In this document: piece after piece, positions 13,521 to 33,225 of the stretch
Layout: every line of letters begins with the position of its first letter
How positions within the stretch are numbered: the first letter of the stretch is position 1
Source of the DNA: Oxalobacteraceae bacterium
GTDB lineage: Bacteria; Pseudomonadota; Gammaproteobacteria; Burkholderiales; Burkholderiaceae_D
DNA length: 64,000 nt
NCBI GenBank assembly: GCA_025352145.1
Contig: JANXTY010000030.1
Location: forward strand, 62,001-126,000
Direction: 5' to 3'
The notes under the pieces: model-generated
Seen by the model: only the letters and a program-made list of their open reading frames with translations
Told to the model about the DNA's origin: nothing
Databases searched by the model: none
Position numbers and translations under genes: made by a program

Positions 13521-15248
13521 ATGAAGACGCCACTTTCCCGCCGCTCTTTTTTAAAAACTTCCGCGCTGGCGACCACGGCGGGTTTAACAATCCCGGCCTG
13601 GTCTAAGGCAGGCGCGACTGAAGTGACTGCGGCGACTGTGGCGGCAGGTGCGATAGCCGGCACGTTGGAGGGATCATCGACGCAAACGGCGTCCGGTCGC
13701 AGCATCGCCAGCGGGCCATTTGATCCGACGTGGGAATCACTTGCGCGTAGGTATAAAGTGCCGGAATGGTATCGCGATGCTAAGTTTGGTATCTGGGCGC
13801 ATTGGACCGCGCAATGTGTCCCCGAACAGGGCGATTGGTACGGACGGAATATGTATATTCAAGGCCATCCTCAGTATGAATATCATGTTAAAACCTACGG
13901 CCATCCGAGCAAGGTGGGCCTGATGGAAATCCAGCATCGCTGGAAGGCCGATAAGTGGAATCCTGAAAAACTCATGGCGTTATATAAACGCGCTGGGGCG
14001 AAAATATTTTTTGCTCTCGCCAATCACCATGATAATTTCGATGCCTATGACTCGCAATATCATGCGTGGAATTCGCTCAACGTGGGGCCAAAAAAAGATA
14101 TCGTCGGTAACTGGGCCAAAGCGGCTCGCGCGCAAGGTCTGCGTTTCGGGGTGAGTAATCATGGTTCCTGGGCGCCGCGCTGGTTGCAAACTGCTTATGG
14201 CTATGACGGCGAGGGTCCGCTCGCGGGAGTACGTTACGACGCCTATTACCATAACAAGCATGCGGGGCAGGGACAATGGTGGGAGGGATTAGATCCACAA
14301 GATTTGTACTCGGGTCGTTCGGTAGTCATTCCCGATGGAATTAAGGGTGCATTGGCGGTTGCTGAGTGGCATAAAAAAAATACGAGTCTTGATCGTACCA
14401 ATCCACTACCGGACGCGCGCTTTGTTGAAAACTGGTTTTTGCGTTGTCAGGATTTAGTCGATAAATATCAACCTGACGTCACGTATTTTGATACCAACGA
14501 GTTGCCGCTTGAACAGGCGGGCCTCGATCTCGTGGCGCACTATTACAATCGCAGTGCTGCGCGGCATGGTGGCCGGGCTGAAGTCGTTGTCAATGGTAAA
14601 CACATGAGGCCGGAGCATACGGGTGCATTTGTGGACGACATCGAGCGCGGCGTGACGGGCGGAATACGTGATGAGCCTTGGCAGATCGATACTTGTATCG
14701 GCCATTGGCATTATGATCGGGCGCTTGCCGAAATGAATGGCTACAAGACAGTTGAACAAGTAGTGAGCATGTTGGTAGATGTCGTCAGTAAAAATGGCAA
14801 TCTCATGCTCAGTATCCCTCTCCGTGGCGATGGCACCATTGACGAACACGAAGAGGCTTTCCTCGAAGGCATGGCCGCATGGATCGCGGTGCATGGCGAG
14901 GGTATTTATTCCACGCGGCCTTGGAAAGTGTTTGGTGAAGGACCTACCAAACTTTCCGGGCGTGAACAGATCGCCACCTACACGCCGGAGGATATTCGTT
15001 TCACTACCAGGGGTGACTCGTTGTACGGGTTCATGCTGAAGTGGCCGACCGCTGGTCAGGCTTTAGTCAAGAGCCTGGCATCCGGCTCGGTATCGTTAGC
15101 GGGGCGCAAAATTACCGACGTGACGCTGCTTGGGCATGTTGGGAAATTAACGTGGTCTCAGACCGAGCAGGGCCTTAAAGTAAAATTGCCTAGTCAAGCA
15201 CCGAGTGTGTATGCGACAGCTCTGCACATCAAAACGACGATGGCCTAA
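13521..15248 (+). CDS. Alpha-L-fucosidase-like GH29 enzyme with Tat signal
   Basis: A second GH29 enzyme of 575 residues, clearly a distant paralogue of the preceding gene (FGIWAHWTAQCVPEQGDWYGRNMY corresponds, in two parts, to the HWG region of its neighbour). The N-terminus SRRSFLK followed by a hydrophobic alanine/threonine stretch is a twin-arginine signal, so it is exported folded, unlike its lipoprotein neighbour. The expected nucleophile is Asp324 in DVTYFDTNEL. The usual HWG-x-Y is altered to HWTAQ, which may change the sugar-binding pocket. A C-terminal beta-sandwich ends the protein. An RBS-like AGGATA precedes the ATG. Fucosidase activity is likely but the substrate may differ. Confidence 0.87.
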   Translation: MKTPLSRRSFLKTSALATTAGLTIPAWSKAGATEVTAATVAAGAIAGTLEGSSTQTASGRSIASGPFDPTWESLARRYKVPEWYRDAKFGIWAHWTAQCVPEQGDWYGRNMYIQGHPQYEYHVKTYGHPSKVGLMEIQHRWKADKWNPEKLMALYKRAGAKIFFALANHHDNFDAYDSQYHAWNSLNVGPKKDIVGNWAKAARAQGLRFGVSNHGSWAPRWLQTAYGYDGEGPLAGVRYDAYYHNKHAGQGQWWEGLDPQDLYSGRSVVIPDGIKGALAVAEWHKKNTSLDRTNPLPDARFVENWFLRCQDLVDKYQPDVTYFDTNELPLEQAGLDLVAHYYNRSAARHGGRAEVVVNGKHMRPEHTGAFVDDIERGVTGGIRDEPWQIDTCIGHWHYDRALAEMNGYKTVEQVVSMLVDVVSKNGNLMLSIPLRGDGTIDEHEEAFLEGMAAWIAVHGEGIYSTRPWKVFGEGPTKLSGREQIATYTPEDIRFTTRGDSLYGFMLKWPTAGQALVKSLASGSVSLAGRKITDVTLLGHVGKLTWSQTEQGLKVKLPSQAPSVYATALHIKTTMA

Positions 15249-15548
15249 AAAATTGGCTAAAAAAGATCCGCTTCGTCTTCTGGAGATGCACGATCATTCC
15301 GCTAGAAAAGGCGACAGTTCGGACGACAATGGTGATCGATAATCAATGTCGATTGCCCATCTCTATTTGTGCCCCCGTTAATTTGAATACTACCTCTGCG
15401 ATGCTCATCGTCTTTGCAGTCCCCTGCTACGCCAGTCGACGGTCGCTCTTCTCGATCCACTATTTCGCTGCTCGATACCCCGGTGTACAGAGGTCTCAAT
15501 GAACGAGTGAGGGGGAATGTTGCCGTTTCATGTTGTATTGCGCTGATA

Positions 15549-15562
15549 TGAAATCGATTTCA
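15549..15562. promoter_or_regulatory. Upstream LacI-type operator, TGAAATCGATTTCA
   Basis: A perfect 14-bp palindrome with the central CG typical of LacI-family sugar repressors. An identical copy lies with its centre 127 bases downstream, close to twelve helical turns, which would suit looping between the two. No LacI-type regulator gene lies in this window, so the regulator is unlinked. The assignment to the LacI family is an inference from palindrome form. Confidence 0.6.
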
Positions 15563-15675
15563 ATATGGCAATGTTATTGAAAGGTATTAAATGGATGAAT
15601 TATGGGGTGATAATTTCTTCTTGAATAGAGGGGATAGGTATTGGAAATGCACCCCATCCTAATAAAAGTACTAGG

Positions 15676-15695
15676 TGAAATCGATTTCATATAAT
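15676..15695 (+). promoter_or_regulatory. Second LacI-type operator abutting a perfect -10 box
   Basis: TGAAATCGATTTCA (15676-15689) is followed at once by TATAAT (15690-15695). A bound repressor would cover the spacer of this promoter. No good -35 hexamer is seen 16-18 bases upstream, so the promoter could need an activator or be weak. Downstream lies the GH6 gene. Confidence 0.6.
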
Positions 15696-15899
15696 GGTAG
15701 GGTAAGTCTGTTGTCAATGGCAATGAACGTTGGTTAATGAATCATGAATAAATTGCATCCAAAAAGGAAAATATTTGCAGAGGTAATGCAAGTTTGCAGA
15801 GGAAAAGTCGCTTTCCGCTTGGAATCCGAGCGATGCAATGTAACGGTGGCATAGTAGGGCGACATTAATCAAAACAATCACAAAACGATGGAGAACAGC

Positions 15900-17921
15900 A
15901 TGGGTTATATAAATAAGAGAATGCTTGCGAAGGTGGTTATTTGTCTGTTGGGGTTATACCAATTGAGTGGATGCGGTGGCGGTTCGCAAGAGGCGGCTTC
16001 TGAGCAACCTAAATTGTTGGCCGATGTAGGGGCTTGTAGTCCAGCTTGGGTTAGCACAACCGTCTATGTGGCGCCGACTACGGTCAGTTACCAAGGGGTT
16101 AACTACACCTCCAATTATTATTCGGTAGGCAAGCCGCCTGCGACCAATACGGGCGCTACTGCTTCTGTTGGGCAGCCATGGATTACCGGTAGTGTATGTA
16201 TGAGCGGAGGCACCACTAGTACGATAGCAACCACGACCACCACCACTGCGCCGCTCGGCGCATGTAGTCCAGCGTGGGTTAGTACGACGGTATACTTGCC
16301 GCCGACGACAGTTAGCTATCTCGGGGTTAACTACACGGCAAATTATTATTCCGTAGGCAGACCGCCTGCGACCAATGCCGGCGCGACCGCATCTGTCGGT
16401 CAGCCGTGGATCACTGGTTTGGGATGTTTGAGCGGAGGGACGACCCAGGCAACGACCACTACCACACAAAACACGACAACGAGCACTGTCAATGGATCGA
16501 CTACAACCACGGTTATAGCAACATCGACTACCAGCACGTCTGCCACAACCACGACCACTAGCAACACAACAACAACGACCCAGGGAGGAAATACCACGCA
16601 TGTGTTAAATCCTTTTGACAACACCAACCAATATCTCAGCCCAGACTATGCGGCGTTGATAGACAAGTCGATCGCAACTGAGAGTAGTGACCCAGCCCTG
16701 GTTGCGAAGATGAAATTGTTGAAAAATGTCCCGACCGCAATTTGGCTGGATCGGATTGAAGCTATTACAGGTGGTGTGATCAACAGCGGGCGGCTTGGAC
16801 TCCAAGCGCACTTGCTTCAAGCCCTGGCGCAGCAAAATGCGTTGGTGGCTGCTGGATCGACCAAGCCAATGTTGGTGACTATTGTCGTCTATGATTTGCC
16901 GGACCGCGATTGCGCTGCACTTGCTTCTAACGGTAGTCTGCATGGCACTGCTGGTCTTGCCACTTACAAAACCGGCTACATTGATGTCATTGCGAGTATC
17001 TTAGCCGACCCGCGTTTTAGCGCACTTCGCATCGCTGCGATTATTGAGCCAGATTCTTTGCCGAACATGGTGACCAATAACATTTCCAAGTTCCCCGTGT
17101 GTCAAGCAGTTGCTAGCGCAAGAACGTATGAATTTGGTGTTCAATATGCGCTCAATAAGCTACACGCCATGAGCAATGTGTATACCTATCTCGATATCGG
17201 GCACTCAGGCTGGTTGGGCTGGCCTTCCAATTCCGGTCCGGCAGCGCAATACTTCAAGACAGTAGTTGCGGGTGCGGCAAATGGTGACATGAGTCTGGTC
17301 GATGGCTTTGTCTCGAACACGGCCAATACGACACCCACAACTGAGCCATTCCTGCCCAATCCAGATTTGCAGATAGGTGGTGCTGCCATAAAATCTGCGA
17401 CTTTTTTTGAATGGAACCCAATTTTTGATGAAGTTACGTTCGCTTCCCTTATGAAGCAATTATTCGTGGCTCAAGGGTTCTCTCCCAATATCGCCATGCT
17501 GATCGATACCTCGCGTAATGGTTGGGGTGGAGCAGCACGTCCGGTAGCGCTCAATCCAACGCCAACAACAGTTTCTACCTACGTTGATGCCAATCGTGTG
17601 GATCGTCGTTTCCACCGTGGCAACTGGTGTAATCCAAGCGGAGCTGGCATAGGTCAACGGCCGCAAGCAAATCCATTCGGCGCCAGCAGCCCGGTGAGAG
17701 CATTTGTTTGGATCAAACCACCTGGTGAATCGGATGGTACCAGCCAACCCCAAAGCGGCCCGGATTCAGAAGGTAAGAGTTCCGACCCTATGTGTTCGCC
17801 AGCGTTTATTACATCAGCAGGTCTCCCAACCGGCGCGATGCCTAATGCGCCCGCAGCTGGTGCATGGTTCCACAACCAGTTTAAAGCGTTGATACAAAAC
17901 GCCTATCCAGTAATCCAATAG
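15900..17921 (+). CDS. GH6 cellulase (endoglucanase/cellobiohydrolase) lipoprotein with two repeated binding modules
   Basis: Inverting 1,4-beta-glucanase. ATG at 15900 (after GGAG) gives a 673-residue preprotein with the lipobox LSGC at Cys25; an ATG 12 bases earlier is possible. Two near-identical modules of about 60 residues follow (starting GACSPAWVSTTVY, ending QPWITG), resembling the chitin/cellulose-binding CBM5/12 fold. They are joined and followed by threonine-rich linkers, the second about 55 residues long. The GH6 domain runs from about residue 238 to the end, with the family signature VVYDLPDRDCAA and the aspartate region IIEPDSLPN. Linkers and modules fit a surface-tethered enzyme reaching for insoluble glucan. 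Two palindromic operators upstream suggest sugar-controlled expression. Confidence 0.92.
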   Translation: MGYINKRMLAKVVICLLGLYQLSGCGGGSQEAASEQPKLLADVGACSPAWVSTTVYVAPTTVSYQGVNYTSNYYSVGKPPATNTGATASVGQPWITGSVCMSGGTTSTIATTTTTTAPLGACSPAWVSTTVYLPPTTVSYLGVNYTANYYSVGRPPATNAGATASVGQPWITGLGCLSGGTTQATTTTTQNTTTSTVNGSTTTTVIATSTTSTSATTTTTSNTTTTTQGGNTTHVLNPFDNTNQYLSPDYAALIDKSIATESSDPALVAKMKLLKNVPTAIWLDRIEAITGGVINSGRLGLQAHLLQALAQQNALVAAGSTKPMLVTIVVYDLPDRDCAALASNGSLHGTAGLATYKTGYIDVIASILADPRFSALRIAAIIEPDSLPNMVTNNISKFPVCQAVASARTYEFGVQYALNKLHAMSNVYTYLDIGHSGWLGWPSNSGPAAQYFKTVVAGAANGDMSLVDGFVSNTANTTPTTEPFLPNPDLQIGGAAIKSATFFEWNPIFDEVTFASLMKQLFVAQGFSPNIAMLIDTSRNGWGGAARPVALNPTPTTVSTYVDANRVDRRFHRGNWCNPSGAGIGQRPQANPFGASSPVRAFVWIKPPGESDGTSQPQSGPDSEGKSSDPMCSPAFITSAGLPTGAMPNAPAAGAWFHNQFKALIQNAYPVIQ

Positions 17922-22045: not shown

Positions 22046-22409
22046 GCGCTTCACCTGTTTTTTTAAAAGGAAGAGCTTAGCAGTTTCAAATACAGTCAGT
22101 AAACAAAATGATCGTGTTACGGCATGAATGCGCAGTGACAGATTGGGGTTTTTTCGAGCGGCCCAGTAGGCCTTGACTTATATCGGGGCGTGTAATTTTT
22201 GATGATAAATACGCCAAAGAAATCGGTTCGGTGTAAGCCCGCGTAGATATAATGGGCACTTTCTGGAGCGGGTGTCTGCACAATTGGGTAGGGTGATTCC
22301 TATCTATTCGTATCTCACAAATTAAATCTTACGGTGCCCAGATGCGCTGCGATGACGATGATACTTATTGCGTATTGCCAGTCAGCTAAATACATTGAGA
22401 GGAAATATC
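22046..22409. other. Divergent control region between GH43 and GH5 genes
   Basis: 364 bases with no supported gene. A TATAAT at 22248-22253 on the plus strand is a candidate -10 box for the GH5 gene, but no good -35 lies at standard distance. The palindromic operator seen before GH6 is absent here, so these two genes are probably under different control. Confidence 0.4.
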
Positions 22410-23552
22410 ATGCGTATTTTTTATAATCAGGACTTAGGAAAAAACGTCCCAGCTTCGGAATTTTCAATGCCAGGACGATGGACCAGTTGGGCTATCCTCG
22501 CCTTATGCCTGACTCTCAGCGCATGCGCCGAGGTCAAGACGTCAGAGATTTTTCCTGACTACCCTTCAAACACAGTACGCGTGACCGCTTCTCCACAAGC
22601 ATTCGAGACGGCGCGTGCGCTAGGCCGTGGTATCAACTTGGGCAATATGTTCGAGTCGCCGCTAGGCAATGGCGATTGGGGGCTGCCCATGCGCAGCGAT
22701 TTTGTCGAGAAAATCAGCACTGCGGGTTTTAATACCGTGCGTATTCCGGTACGCTGGAGCAATCATGCAAACACGGATTCCGAAGCACATATCGATGAAG
22801 CGTTCGCCAAACGTATCGACGAAACCGTAGATGCATTTCTGGCACGGGGCTTGTACGTCGTCCTCAATATGCATCACTACCGTCAGATGACCGATGGACG
22901 TGTCGACTCCGGTGAAGCAATCGTCGATGATGCATTGGTGCAGGTCCGCTTTTTTAAATTGTGGCAGCAAATCGCGCAGCGTTATCAGAACCGATCGTCG
23001 CATTTGCTGTTCGAGCTCTACAATGAACCTCAAGGAAAAATAGAGAAGGAGTGGAATGCGATGGCGTCGCGTGCGTTGCGGATCGTGCGCCAAAGTAATC
23101 CCCAACGTATCGTTATCATTGGCCCTGTCCGCTGGAATAATGCGGATGCATTGGCGCAATTGCGCTTGCCGCCTGACCCCTACCTGATCGTCACTGTGCA
23201 TAATTACGATCCATTCAATTTCACACATCAAGGCGCTGAATGGATCAAACCTGTGCCGGTACAAGGTGTCGGCTGTTGTAATGAAGAGCAGCGTGGACGC
23301 ATTGCACATGGCTTAGATACGGCTCAGGCATGGGGTCAACGCAACGGTTATCCGATATGGTTGGGAGAATTCGGTGCGTTTAACAAGGCCCCGATGCCAT
23401 CGAGAATAATGTACACGCAGATAGTGCGCAGCGAGGCAGAGAAACGTGGCATCAATTGGGCGTACTGGGAGTTTGGTTCAGGATTCGGAATTTATAATCC
23501 CCATACTGATCGTTGGAATCAAGATCTGCTTGATGCGCTTGTAAAAAAATAG
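22410..23552 (+). CDS. Glycoside hydrolase family 5 cellulase (endoglucanase) lipoprotein
   Basis: A 380-residue retaining endo-beta-glucanase. The start at 22410 follows GAGAGGA; an in-frame ATG 42 bases upstream lacks a ribosome site. The signal ends in the lipobox LSAC of LTLSACAEV. The GH5 features are clear: GINLGNMFE near the start of the barrel, the acid/base Glu206 in FELYNEPQ, and the nucleophile Glu320 in WLGEFGAF. WAYWEFGSGFGIY near the C-terminus completes the barrel. It acts outside the cytoplasm, tethered to a membrane, and would complement the GH6 enzyme on beta-1,4-glucan or xyloglucan. Confidence 0.93.
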   Translation: MRIFYNQDLGKNVPASEFSMPGRWTSWAILALCLTLSACAEVKTSEIFPDYPSNTVRVTASPQAFETARALGRGINLGNMFESPLGNGDWGLPMRSDFVEKISTAGFNTVRIPVRWSNHANTDSEAHIDEAFAKRIDETVDAFLARGLYVVLNMHHYRQMTDGRVDSGEAIVDDALVQVRFFKLWQQIAQRYQNRSSHLLFELYNEPQGKIEKEWNAMASRALRIVRQSNPQRIVIIGPVRWNNADALAQLRLPPDPYLIVTVHNYDPFNFTHQGAEWIKPVPVQGVGCCNEEQRGRIAHGLDTAQAWGQRNGYPIWLGEFGAFNKAPMPSRIMYTQIVRSEAEKRGINWAYWEFGSGFGIYNPHTDRWNQDLLDALVKK

Positions 23553-30046: not shown

Positions 30047-30477
30047 CCTGCCACTATAGTAGTGCAAATCAATTTCCGTCAATAGATTCAAATACTTGCC
30101 GATGTTTTTTCAAGACATATCTAGCGGTTTGATCGCATGGGTAGGAGAAAAAGGATGTTTTGCACGCAAATATATTGGTGAAATGAATCGGCGCATAGCG
30201 GGCTGTGATTGCATTATTTCCAACTAACTCTTACAATTTCGCACCGATAGATCGTCATTGGCAGTGAGTCAAACTGACCACCCCCCCGATTTTTGCATCA
30301 GTGACCTGAATCCTCGTATGTTTTTCGATTCGTAGGAAGCAATCTTTGATCGGTTGGTGGATTGGTGGGACACTACGGCCTTCCTTCACAAACTTCCCTT
30401 ACGAACCAGAATCCTGCGCGATCACCTCCCGAAGTTATGCAAAAATCGGGGCAAAAGCTGAAAGAAGAAATAAGACA
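30047..30477. other. Non-coding region before the GGDEF-EAL gene
   Basis: 431 bases. An open frame continues upstream of 30478 to 30346, but its codons do not look like protein and no ribosome site supports that start. No c-di-GMP riboswitch or terminator is recognised. Promoters for zapB-zapA (minus) and the GGDEF-EAL gene (plus) must lie here. Confidence 0.5.
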
Positions 30478-33225
30478 ATGGACGTGAATCCGCCAGATAA
30501 TCGCCTCACTGCTTTAATGCAGAAGTTCGCGTTTCTGAAAGGGAGTATCCCATCCCTTCTTGTATGGCCTATCCTTGCGCTTATTGTCACCGTGCTGGTG
30601 TGGGGCTTAACGTTGGCGCAATTTTCTCAAGACAAGCGCCTGCTCGAAAAAAATGCTTATAGCGATGCTGTTTCCCTCACTCATGCCTACGCCCAGCATC
30701 TGACCCGTGCGATTGAGCAGGTCGATCAGGTGTCGCTATTGCTCAAATTCGAATGGGAGCGTACGCAAAGCGTACTGGAACTGGGCAGTCTTTTGCAAAA
30801 AGGGATTTTTCCGACGCCCGATTTTAAAGTAGTCGCCATTTTCGATAAAAACGGGTACGTCAAAACAACAAGTCCGCCTCTACAAAAACGGCATCTGCTT
30901 TCGGTGGAAAATAAAGAATTTTTTATTTTCCATAAAAATGAAAAGTCCCCTCTTCTATTCATTGGACAGCGACGTACTGAACAGAATTCCAAAAAATTTT
31001 GGATTGAGTTTTCCCGCAGATTAGAAACGGCACGCGGTGATTTTGACGGCGTAATTGTCATCGCAGTCGATCCATCTTATTTTTCCGCCCCGTTTTACGA
31101 TGGATTAGGTCTGGGGAAATCTGGATTTTTAGGCACCATAGACCCGCGCAATAAGATCAACCCCACATTCAGAATGGCCGGAACCATGATGGCGCCCGAT
31201 AGTCGGCTATTGCTTCAGATGCCAGAATTTTCCCCAAGTCATGGCGTACTTCGCATGGTGGGAGAAAAGTGGTTTGCAGATGGAAAAACGCGCTTCATTG
31301 CCTGGCAAGCTCTTCAACATTATCCGTTTATGGCGATGGCGGGACTTTCTGAAGAAGAACTCCTGGTTCCCTATGAAGAAACATGGAAAACTTACCGATT
31401 AAATGCGATTGCAGCCAGTATTTTATTGCTCGTCTTTACCCTGATAGCTATGGCTTTGGCCACGCGCTTGGCATGGCGCAAACATCTGGAAGAAGATGCA
31501 CGCACTGCCTACCGAACTGCAACGGAAGGCGGCAACGATGGATTTTATATGATGCGTGCCCTCCGCAAACGCGGTGTCATTGAAGATCTGGAACTCATTG
31601 ACTGTAATGAGCAAGGTGCCGCTTTTTATGGCGCTACCAGAAAACAATTTTTAGGGACTAAACTTTCAGATCGTTACAGCGGCCCGTATTTTGATGCGCT
31701 GATGGGGATCTATCGACGAGCCATTGAGCTGGGGTTCTATGAAGACGAACTTGAAATTGGTCCTGACAGCCCGCTCAAAATGGGATGGATACATCGCCGG
31801 TTCGTCCGCTCTGCTACCGGATTGGCCATGACAGTGAAAGATATCACCCAGGCCAAGACACACGAAAAAGCCTTATCCCGATTGGCAAACGAAGATGCGT
31901 TGACCTTGCTGCCCAATCGATATTGGTTGAATAACTACCTGCCGGCTGCATTAGTACGCATGGCTGAGAAAGACCAGATGTTAGCACTGCTATTCATCGA
32001 TCTGGACGATTTCAAATACGTCAATGACACATTGGGTCATCAGGCGGGTGATTCCCTGTTGTGTGAAGTAGCGCAGCGCCTGCGTGCCGTATTAAGGCCA
32101 GGTGATCATGTGGTGCGATTGGGGGGGGATGAATTTACCGTCATTCTTGAGTCGATTGCGGGTAGCGGCGATGCAGCCGAGGTGGCGACCCGCATAACGG
32201 AAAGCATGAAGCGGCCATTCCAGCTCTTGCGCAGAATGAGTACCATCGGCGCATCGATCGGCATCACCTTGTTTCCGCGTGATGGCACAGATACTGTCAC
32301 CCTTTTAAAAAACTCCGATATTGCGATGTACCACGCCAAAGCGGAAGGTAAGGGGAATTTCCGATTTTATCAACCGATCTTATATGAAAATCTGAAGATC
32401 AGACTTAACACTGAACGTGCCTTATTAAAAGCACTGGACCACAATCAATTCGTACTGTTCTATGAACCGCGTATCTGCACTTTTACCGGACAGCTGCGCG
32501 GATTGGAAGCATTAGTACGATGGTTGCATCCGCAACGTGGTTTGGTGCCGCCAAGTGAATTTATACGCTTGGCCGAAGATACCGGCCTGATTTTGAAGTT
32601 AGGTGAAATTGTTATTGAACAAGCGTGCGCCCAGATTGCGTATTGGAAAAAATTGGACGTTCCCTTAGTACCGGTCTCGATCAATGTTTCTGCCCGTCAG
32701 TTTAATCATGGTGGCATGAAAAATATTTTTGCATCGTGTTTGGAAAAATACGATATCCATCCTGAACTGATTGAAATCGAGTTGACCGAGTCCTCAATGA
32801 TGGGCGAGCAATCTGAAGTTGCCGAGCAGCTTGCAGCGATCCGAAGCATTGGTATCAAACTTCTGGTAGATGACTTCGGCACCGGATTTTCTTCACTCGC
32901 CCAATTGCAACGATTGAATATGGATGCGCTGAAAGTAGATCGTACATTTACGGCAGAATTGGCCCGCACGACCGAAGGCGAAATTTTCTTTAATGCTATC
33001 GTGTCGATGGCGCATTCGCTCGGCATGAGCGTAATCGCAGAGGGTGTTGAAACTATCGAACAACTACATTTGTTGCAATCCTTGTCTTGCGATGAAATTC
33101 AAGGCTACCTGATTGCGAAACCAATGCCCGCCAATGAAATTCAAAAAATATTGCAAAAACGCGTGTTATTGCAGCCAGGCTTATTTTCACCCGTCGTCAG
33201 TTGTTCAATGCAAAAAACACCGTAG
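30478..33225 (+). CDS. Membrane sensor diguanylate cyclase/phosphodiesterase (GGDEF-EAL)
   Basis: A 915-residue protein that makes and/or degrades cyclic di-GMP. The start at 30478 follows GAAGAAATAAG. Domain order: a first membrane helix (about residues 22-45), a periplasmic Cache-like domain, a second helix (about 318-340), a PAS-like domain, GGDEF and EAL. The GGDEF motif is intact at residues 549-553 and the EAL motif at 677-679 (EALVRW); the catalytic ESSMM, DDFGTG and EGVET elements are also present. Both activities are therefore possible. A short relic of a second EAL domain lies 42 bases downstream. Confidence 0.93.
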   Translation: MDVNPPDNRLTALMQKFAFLKGSIPSLLVWPILALIVTVLVWGLTLAQFSQDKRLLEKNAYSDAVSLTHAYAQHLTRAIEQVDQVSLLLKFEWERTQSVLELGSLLQKGIFPTPDFKVVAIFDKNGYVKTTSPPLQKRHLLSVENKEFFIFHKNEKSPLLFIGQRRTEQNSKKFWIEFSRRLETARGDFDGVIVIAVDPSYFSAPFYDGLGLGKSGFLGTIDPRNKINPTFRMAGTMMAPDSRLLLQMPEFSPSHGVLRMVGEKWFADGKTRFIAWQALQHYPFMAMAGLSEEELLVPYEETWKTYRLNAIAASILLLVFTLIAMALATRLAWRKHLEEDARTAYRTATEGGNDGFYMMRALRKRGVIEDLELIDCNEQGAAFYGATRKQFLGTKLSDRYSGPYFDALMGIYRRAIELGFYEDELEIGPDSPLKMGWIHRRFVRSATGLAMTVKDITQAKTHEKALSRLANEDALTLLPNRYWLNNYLPAALVRMAEKDQMLALLFIDLDDFKYVNDTLGHQAGDSLLCEVAQRLRAVLRPGDHVVRLGGDEFTVILESIAGSGDAAEVATRITESMKRPFQLLRRMSTIGASIGITLFPRDGTDTVTLLKNSDIAMYHAKAEGKGNFRFYQPILYENLKIRLNTERALLKALDHNQFVLFYEPRICTFTGQLRGLEALVRWLHPQRGLVPPSEFIRLAEDTGLILKLGEIVIEQACAQIAYWKKLDVPLVPVSINVSARQFNHGGMKNIFASCLEKYDIHPELIEIELTESSMMGEQSEVAEQLAAIRSIGIKLLVDDFGTGFSSLAQLQRLNMDALKVDRTFTAELARTTEGEIFFNAIVSMAHSLGMSVIAEGVETIEQLHLLQSLSCDEIQGYLIAKPMPANEIQKILQKRVLLQPGLFSPVVSCSMQKTP

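Follow-up and report, generated by a model that had tools for sequence, protein, structure and literature searches.

The switch proposed here is of a kind already known, represented by CelR in the Actinobacteria and by the BglR and CelR groups elsewhere, and the targets of Thermobifida fusca CelR include GH6, GH48 and GH9 genes. CelR is a LacI-family protein whose palindromes have CG at their centre and lie before cellulase and cellobiose uptake genes, and in vitro cellobiose breaks up the complex of CelR with DNA (PMC3377646). In that study, sites with one mismatch were counted too, as they are below, and two identical palindromes stand before one uptake operon (Caci_5330). The BglR and CelR groups of the Proteobacteria are likewise LacI-type, with even palindromes centred on CG and beta-glucoside genes as targets (Ravcheev et al., 2014; PMC4052901); the sections of that paper used here name BglR for Caulobacterales and CelR for gamma-Proteobacteria, with no mention of the present family or of GH6 and GH48. 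The same sections give autoregulation as common among LacI-family regulators (72 %) and 16–22 nt as the usual operator length, read tandem sites about 22 bp apart as cooperative dimers, with spacing peaks at 13, 22 and 32 bp, and find groups of four sites to be rare, at only five operons (PMC4052901).

We describe a locus in a stretch of 64 000 nt (the window) from a bacterium of the Oxalobacteraceae, in which two copies of a palindrome with these properties lie before a GH6 gene. Judging from sequence, they are operators of a LacI-family, probably dimeric, CelR-like repressor encoded elsewhere in the genome, on contig C40, and we put the probability of this reading at about 85 %. The locus resembles the T. 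fusca system in the family of its candidate regulator, in the central CG and in the genes served, and the GH6 pair recalls the doubled palindrome of Caci_5330; however, CelR belongs to the Actinobacteria and to a cellobiose ABC transporter, whereas TonB-dependent receptors and an MFS transporter are found here, and the CelR half-site, in printed variants such as TGAGAGCGCTCTCA, differs from TGAAATCGATTTCA (PMC3377646). Because of this difference in half-site we claim for the C40 protein only that it works like CelR. The 14 bp core is also short beside the usual 16–22 nt (PMC4052901). A search of the open-access literature, with subscription papers and supplements outside its range, found no account of this regulon in this family.

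Probable operators and core promoter before the GH6 gene

The two palindromes are located in a gap of about 650 bp between a GH29 alpha-L-fucosidase gene, which ends at 15248, and the GH6 gene, and the features of this region are as follows.

15549–15562, no strand assigned: upstream operator, perfect 14 bp palindrome TGAAATCGATTTCA, exact match
15676–15689, no strand assigned: downstream (core-promoter) operator, identical 14-mer TGAAATCGATTTCA, directly 5′ of the −10 box
15690–15695, + strand: TATAAT, probable GH6 −10 element, adjoining the downstream operator; no −35 hexamer recognized
15900–17921, + strand: gene under the operators, encoding a GH6 cellulase of the cellobiohydrolase type (PF01341, E=1e-91)

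A preliminary description, made from the letters of the window, had reported identical 14-mers 127 bases and close to twelve helical turns apart, the downstream one abutting TATAAT, and all of this was borne out: both copies are exact, their start-to-start distance is 127 bp, or 12.1 turns at 10.5 bp per turn, and TATAAT begins right after position 15689. The palindrome is of even length with CG at its centre and lies 5′ of the GH6 gene, as is typical of LacI-family operators, and consists of the 14 bp core and weak A/T flanks. The likeness of the two copies is limited to the palindrome and its A/T-rich neighbours, with no repeat beyond the 14-mer; a duplicated promoter segment was considered as the source of both copies and rejected, the 60-base flanks being identical at only 14 and 20 of 60 positions.

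The downstream 14-mer occupies the place of the −35/−10 spacer of the GH6 promoter, and an operator in that position blocks polymerase. A consensus scan found no two-hexamer sigma-70 promoter on the + strand, so that the promoter call is based on the −10 element, and TATAAT is probably used as such. Between the −10 and the start codon lies a leader of about 200 nt; an RNA element within it was rejected, since 15249–16000 gave no Rfam match up to E=1.

The GH6 ORF opens at 15888, although the ATG at 15900 is preceded by GGAG (by eye) and is thus the likelier start. The best solved relatives of the protein are CbsA (5xyh, E=7.5e-142), Exoglucanase A (7cbd) and a GH6 cellobiohydrolase (6k52), and the product is therefore predicted to be probably an exo-acting cellulase. 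It has a full GH6 domain, Thr-rich linkers and a weak match to CBM5/12 (PF02839, 22.5 bits, below the cut-off of 26.2), seemingly present twice (by eye). The N terminus (15900–15990) has a signal-peptide-like stretch that ends in a lipobox-like LSGC (by eye), and the cellobiohydrolase may be a lipoprotein. At the left end of the window, the ORF at 74–805 reads by eye like a REP-associated (Y1-type) transposase.

Distribution of sites in the genome and a candidate regulator

Within the window there are three matches to the palindrome at up to two mismatches, compared with a mean of 0.45 in 100 shuffles, one of which reached three; the next-best match after the GH6 pair has two mismatches and lies at 32772, within the ORF 30346–33225. 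In the 3.48 Mb genome (G000), TGAAATCGATTTCA is found exactly four times and at 11 places with no more than one mismatch, as against 0.17 and 1.4 respectively expected per 3.48 Mb under a first-order Markov model of the window, a rough estimate from few counts. A control with the reversed motif, which is also a palindrome, gave none as against the 11 at this threshold, and 99 as against 364 at up to three mismatches. The 11 places, and the regulator gene that adjoins one of them, are as follows.

Window 15549 and 15676: two sites, before GH6
C40, L012:5682–6740, − strand: CelR-like LacI-family gene, the candidate regulator, facing the GH1 gene across an exact operator
C40, L012:6947: one exact site, with lacI on one side and on the other a run of divergent genes for a GH1 beta-glucosidase, glucokinase and an MFS transporter
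C40, L012:13988 and 14009: two sites 21 bp apart, between a TonB-dependent receptor gene and a tryptophan-halogenase-family gene
C7, L013:5259, 5470 and 5680: two sites and a third with two mismatches, upstream of GH48-CBM2
C65, L015:6538: one site, before a TonB-dependent receptor gene, with a GH3 gene beside it
C65, L015:17960: one site, before GH9-CBM2
C29, G000:C29:158759 (L014:6760): one site, TGAAAGCGATTTCA, at the 5′ end of a GntR-family regulator gene
C2:81603 (L016:5604): one site, with no link to cellulose

Nine of the 11 thus precede cellulose or beta-glucoside genes or lie between lacI and the GH1–glucokinase–MFS run. The preliminary description had named occurrence at random frequency in non-regulatory places as what would tell against it, and this is not the pattern seen. 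That the pair is an A/T-rich palindrome without function, a product of chance or composition, might be suggested by the A+T content of 15541–15700 (0.66, against 0.51 and 0.60 in its surroundings), but the idea is contradicted already by the distribution of sites over the genome, with 11 against none in the control and the sites before related genes, and also by the conservation of the operator in relatives described below; we find it scarcely credible. The two sites without a cellulose link, at C29:158759 and C2:81603, are about the number expected by chance and possibly no more than that. Neighbours of the former include GH88, GH28, pectinesterase and altronate-dehydratase-family genes.

Downstream of GH48-CBM2 on C7, on the same strand, is a GH5-CBM2 gene, and the GH3 gene on C65 has a two-mismatch site (C65:12957) over its start region. 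The tryptophan-halogenase-family gene on C40 (L012:14154–15725, PF04820) is divergent from the TonB receptor gene across the doublet, a layout that by eye resembles that of a relative (L136). The stretches scanned around the GH5 gene of the window (22368–23552) and a CBM2 gene on C68 contained no site; a fourth CBM2 match, at C68:31836–32093 (L122), has an in-frame stop codon and is possibly a broken gene. The earlier statement that other glycosidase promoters lack the site holds for the window, where none was found at the promoters of the GH2, two GH29, GH43 and GH5 genes, and fails for the genome as a whole. A shared operator before exo- and endocellulase, transport and beta-glucosidase genes is what defines a CelR-like regulon as a functional kind; the genome has such an operator before genes of all these classes, and their co-regulation is predicted. 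What had been an orphan pair of palindromes can now be assigned to a predicted regulon, with a candidate for its regulator gene.

No matching regulator had been recognized among the genes around the pair, and this proved right for the window: a regulator there was rejected, as none of the three LacI-family genes of the genome is on contig C29, and the search for a LacI-family gene with a matching operator led to C40. Only that gene adjoins a site, and the exact copy at L012:6947, between lacI and the divergent GH1 gene, is an arrangement of the autoregulatory type; the earlier assignment of the pair to a LacI-family repressor is supported by it. The other two LacI-family genes are located by GH10/GH30 genes and by an enolase-superfamily gene, with no TGAAANCGNTTTCA site listed near either, and the palindromes in their vicinity are of another type, with GGTAGCG. 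The C40 protein has a LacI helix–turn–helix (PF00356, E=8.3e-18, residues 26–70, above cut-off) and a periplasmic-binding-protein-like effector domain (PF13377, E=4.5e-31, residues 189–348).

In place of a substrate-specific repressor one might consider an activator of the LacI type, or a global regulator of carbon catabolism: the closest solved relatives of the C40 protein include CcpA proteins, a palindrome with central CG is of the general LacI-family type (PMC4052901), and the distal copies are compatible with activation. The nine sites, however, stand before cellulose and beta-glucoside or regulator genes and not before those of central metabolism, and one copy is in the spacer of the core promoter, where it would block polymerase, so that an activator or global regulator appears distinctly unlikely.

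Computation shows the sites themselves, how they are distributed over the genome, the regulator gene linked to one of them, and the conservation of the operator with that gene and with GH6 and GH48 loci in the family; we infer DNA binding, repression rather than activation, the oligomeric state, the effector and the use of TATAAT. A substrate-specific repressor would act as follows. When breakdown products of cellulose are lacking, a dimer on the core copy would block RNA polymerase at GH6, to judge from its position, and the copy 127 bp upstream would add local occupancy or a second contact. With TonB-dependent receptors and an MFS permease as its routes of entry, cellobiose or another cello-oligosaccharide would bind the periplasmic-binding-protein-like domain, upon which the repressor would leave the DNA and GH6, GH48-GH5, GH9, the receptors, the GH1 beta-glucosidase and glucokinase would be expressed jointly. 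The genes under the sites would form a path from cellulose to glucose 6-phosphate, with the GH6, GH48, GH9 and GH5 enzymes presumably outside the cell, TonB receptors in the outer membrane, the MFS protein in the inner membrane, and the GH1 enzyme and glucokinase inside; for this reason, and by analogy with T. fusca CelR, we take cellobiose or a cello-oligosaccharide as probably the natural inducer. Deletion of a single gene would allow the induction of the exocellulases GH6 and GH48 to be tested in the family to which this genome belongs.

Conservation of the operator in relatives

In a survey of the family, 99 of 294 genomes, this one included, have a match to the C40 protein at E≤1e-80, with 42–100 % identity, and close relatives (70–80 % identical) are present in Rugamonas, Pseudoduganella and Massilia. 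Among 36 lacI loci scanned at 67–80 % identity, a TGAAANCGNTTTCA site with at most one mismatch is present in 26, although these are counts of loci and not of independent events, with identical doublets in L037/L079, L038/L082, L093/L096 and L102/L103. Ten loci (L080, L084, L087–L092, L095 and L099) have no site in the stretch scanned, and in seven of these cases the genome has one 1.6–1.7 kb upstream, outside that stretch, a tally to which L090–L092 do not belong. In L136, from one of these seven genomes, a receptor-like gene and a halogenase-like gene flank the site at this distance from lacI, as on C40.

The scans were extended by 14 further regions, comprising two lacI loci (L136 and L137), five with lacI homologues (L131–L135), a GH48 locus (L141) and six around sites away from lacI. 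At 55–57 % identity, four of the five regions with homologues have a site, which is upstream of the gene in L131, L132 and L135 and just behind lacI in L134; in the fifth, L133 of genome G055, no site was found in 17 kb around lacI, though the GH6 locus of the same genome (L146) has one. At 31–37 % identity, in loci which we take to be from Alteromonadales, the 14-mer with up to one mismatch was found in none of the 15 scanned (L041–L055, with L056–L060 left out), and a degenerate form of the motif gave a single one-mismatch site, in L048. We therefore claim the operator only within the family of this genome. Sites with other neighbours were seen in L142, by a solute-binding protein gene, and in L143, about 2.4 kb from a GH10 gene, and L140 and L144 have sites with no clear partner gene.

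A test that could fail is provided by the GH6 genes, which a Pfam domain search found in nine of the 294 genomes. Five of these (this one, G055, G104, G135 and G237) have a LacI homologue at E≤1e-80, which in the other four is 55–64 % identical to the C40 protein, and in all five the GH6 locus has a site; in the remaining four (G086, G132, G239 and G282), which have no such homologue, 9–13 kb of the GH6 locus contain no site at up to one mismatch. With this genome left out, the comparison is four of four against none of four. Here and in G237 (site at L148:7851, gene from 7972) the operator directly precedes GH6, and in G055, G104 and G135 it lies before a receptor or MFS gene that is itself followed by GH6. 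An earlier search of 40 relatives with the full GH6 protein was discarded: it had matches in four genomes including this one, in the other three of which only residues 4–229, before the catalytic domain, were matched, and the domain search was used for this reason. GH48 is present in ten genomes of the 294, all with a LacI match at E≤1e-80, and the GH48 stretch of each contains a perfect TGAAANCGNTTTCA. Both tallies include related genomes, nine of the ten with GH48 being of one genus, and are not to be read as independent events. The GH48 gene of G253 is broken by frame changes, and in G109 the GH48 gene, a small gene and GH5 follow one another in the same order as on C7.

Two of the regions away from lacI bear on whether the sites might be read by a regulator of another family, such as a ROK-family sugar repressor. 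In G018 and G164, the exact 14-mer has a ROK-family regulator gene on one side and a TonB receptor gene on the other (L138:8371 and L139:8007); both genomes also have the LacI gene, and either the LacI protein controls these receptors or the ROK protein reads a like motif. In the present genome, on the other hand, lacI has one exact site beside it, and the ORF and Pfam lists show no ROK gene next to any of the sites inspected; the motif follows LacI homologues across genera and distinguishes GH6 loci with them from those without. We thus regard a reader from another family as very improbable, and retain the LacI-family protein.

Operator spacing and the question of looping

The preliminary description had proposed that the 127 bp spacing suits a looped repressor, and the E. 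coli Lac repressor, a member of the same family, does have two distant operators with one at the core promoter. It also has a C-terminal tetramerization tail. The C40 protein aligns with LacI over residues 24–346 of 352 (LacI 4–327 of 360), which leaves 6 residues after the aligned core as against 33 in LacI, and thus no room for such a tail. In this genome itself the distant copies are in phase, at 12.1 turns for the GH6 pair, and at 211 and 210 bp (20.1 and 20.0 turns) for the GH48 copies on C7, as would be expected of copies of the same repressor joined by a DNA loop, of about 12 turns before GH6. Across relatives, unlike in E. coli, the distal spacing is not phase-locked. Among the matches listed, four genomes of genus g6 have distal pairs in their lacI promoters that are 154, 164, 165 and 168 bp apart (14.7–16.0 turns), and a fifth genome (G305) has a 166 bp pair that does not share a contig with lacI; in seven GH48 loci from genus g12, the pair is 480–492 bp apart (45.7–46.9 turns).

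This drift argues against a phase requirement. Moreover, 31 nt are alike around each of the three GH48 operators on C7 (L013:5257–5708), and these operators may, to judge by that likeness, be what is left of a tandem duplication (about 210 bp) that has since decayed, so that the 211 and 210 bp spacings may stem from a single old event. With the drift among orthologues and this possible common origin, the near-whole-turn spacings of 127, 211, 210 and 21 bp lose most of their weight. The looped repressor is accordingly not supported, and we consider a loop unlikely, though looping by dimer–dimer contacts or a helper protein is possible.

Close doublets show a different behaviour. At every one of the 20 lacI loci, among the 36, that have two sites within 60 bp, the sites are exactly 21 bp apart (16 distinct sequences); one genome (G246) has a doublet at 20 bp. 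Given this fixed close spacing, the absence of a tail and the distal drift, the 127 bp pair is more readily understood as the sites of two dimers that bind separately, most of the work being done by the copy at the core promoter.

A wider reading, which we offer tentatively and with considerable doubt, is that of a cellulose regulon of Gram-negative type in the family of this genome, where a dimeric LacI protein ties the TonB-dependent uptake of cello-oligosaccharides to the exocellulases GH6 and GH48, with graded operator arrays that set thresholds and with possible looping. Receptor promoters would have two to four copies at an exact 21 bp pitch, on the same face and bound cooperatively, and the exocellulase promoters of this genome would have copies more than 100 bp apart; if this is true, uptake and enzyme export would differ in their thresholds of induction. 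The 21 bp doublets and arrays in many relatives offer ready material for testing whether LacI dimers bind cooperatively. Arrays are found in two other genomes, with four operators beside a TonB receptor gene (L153:8611–8687) and three beside a Trp-halogenase-family gene (L154:7534–7589), both at an exact 21 bp pitch, some of the copies having one mismatch.
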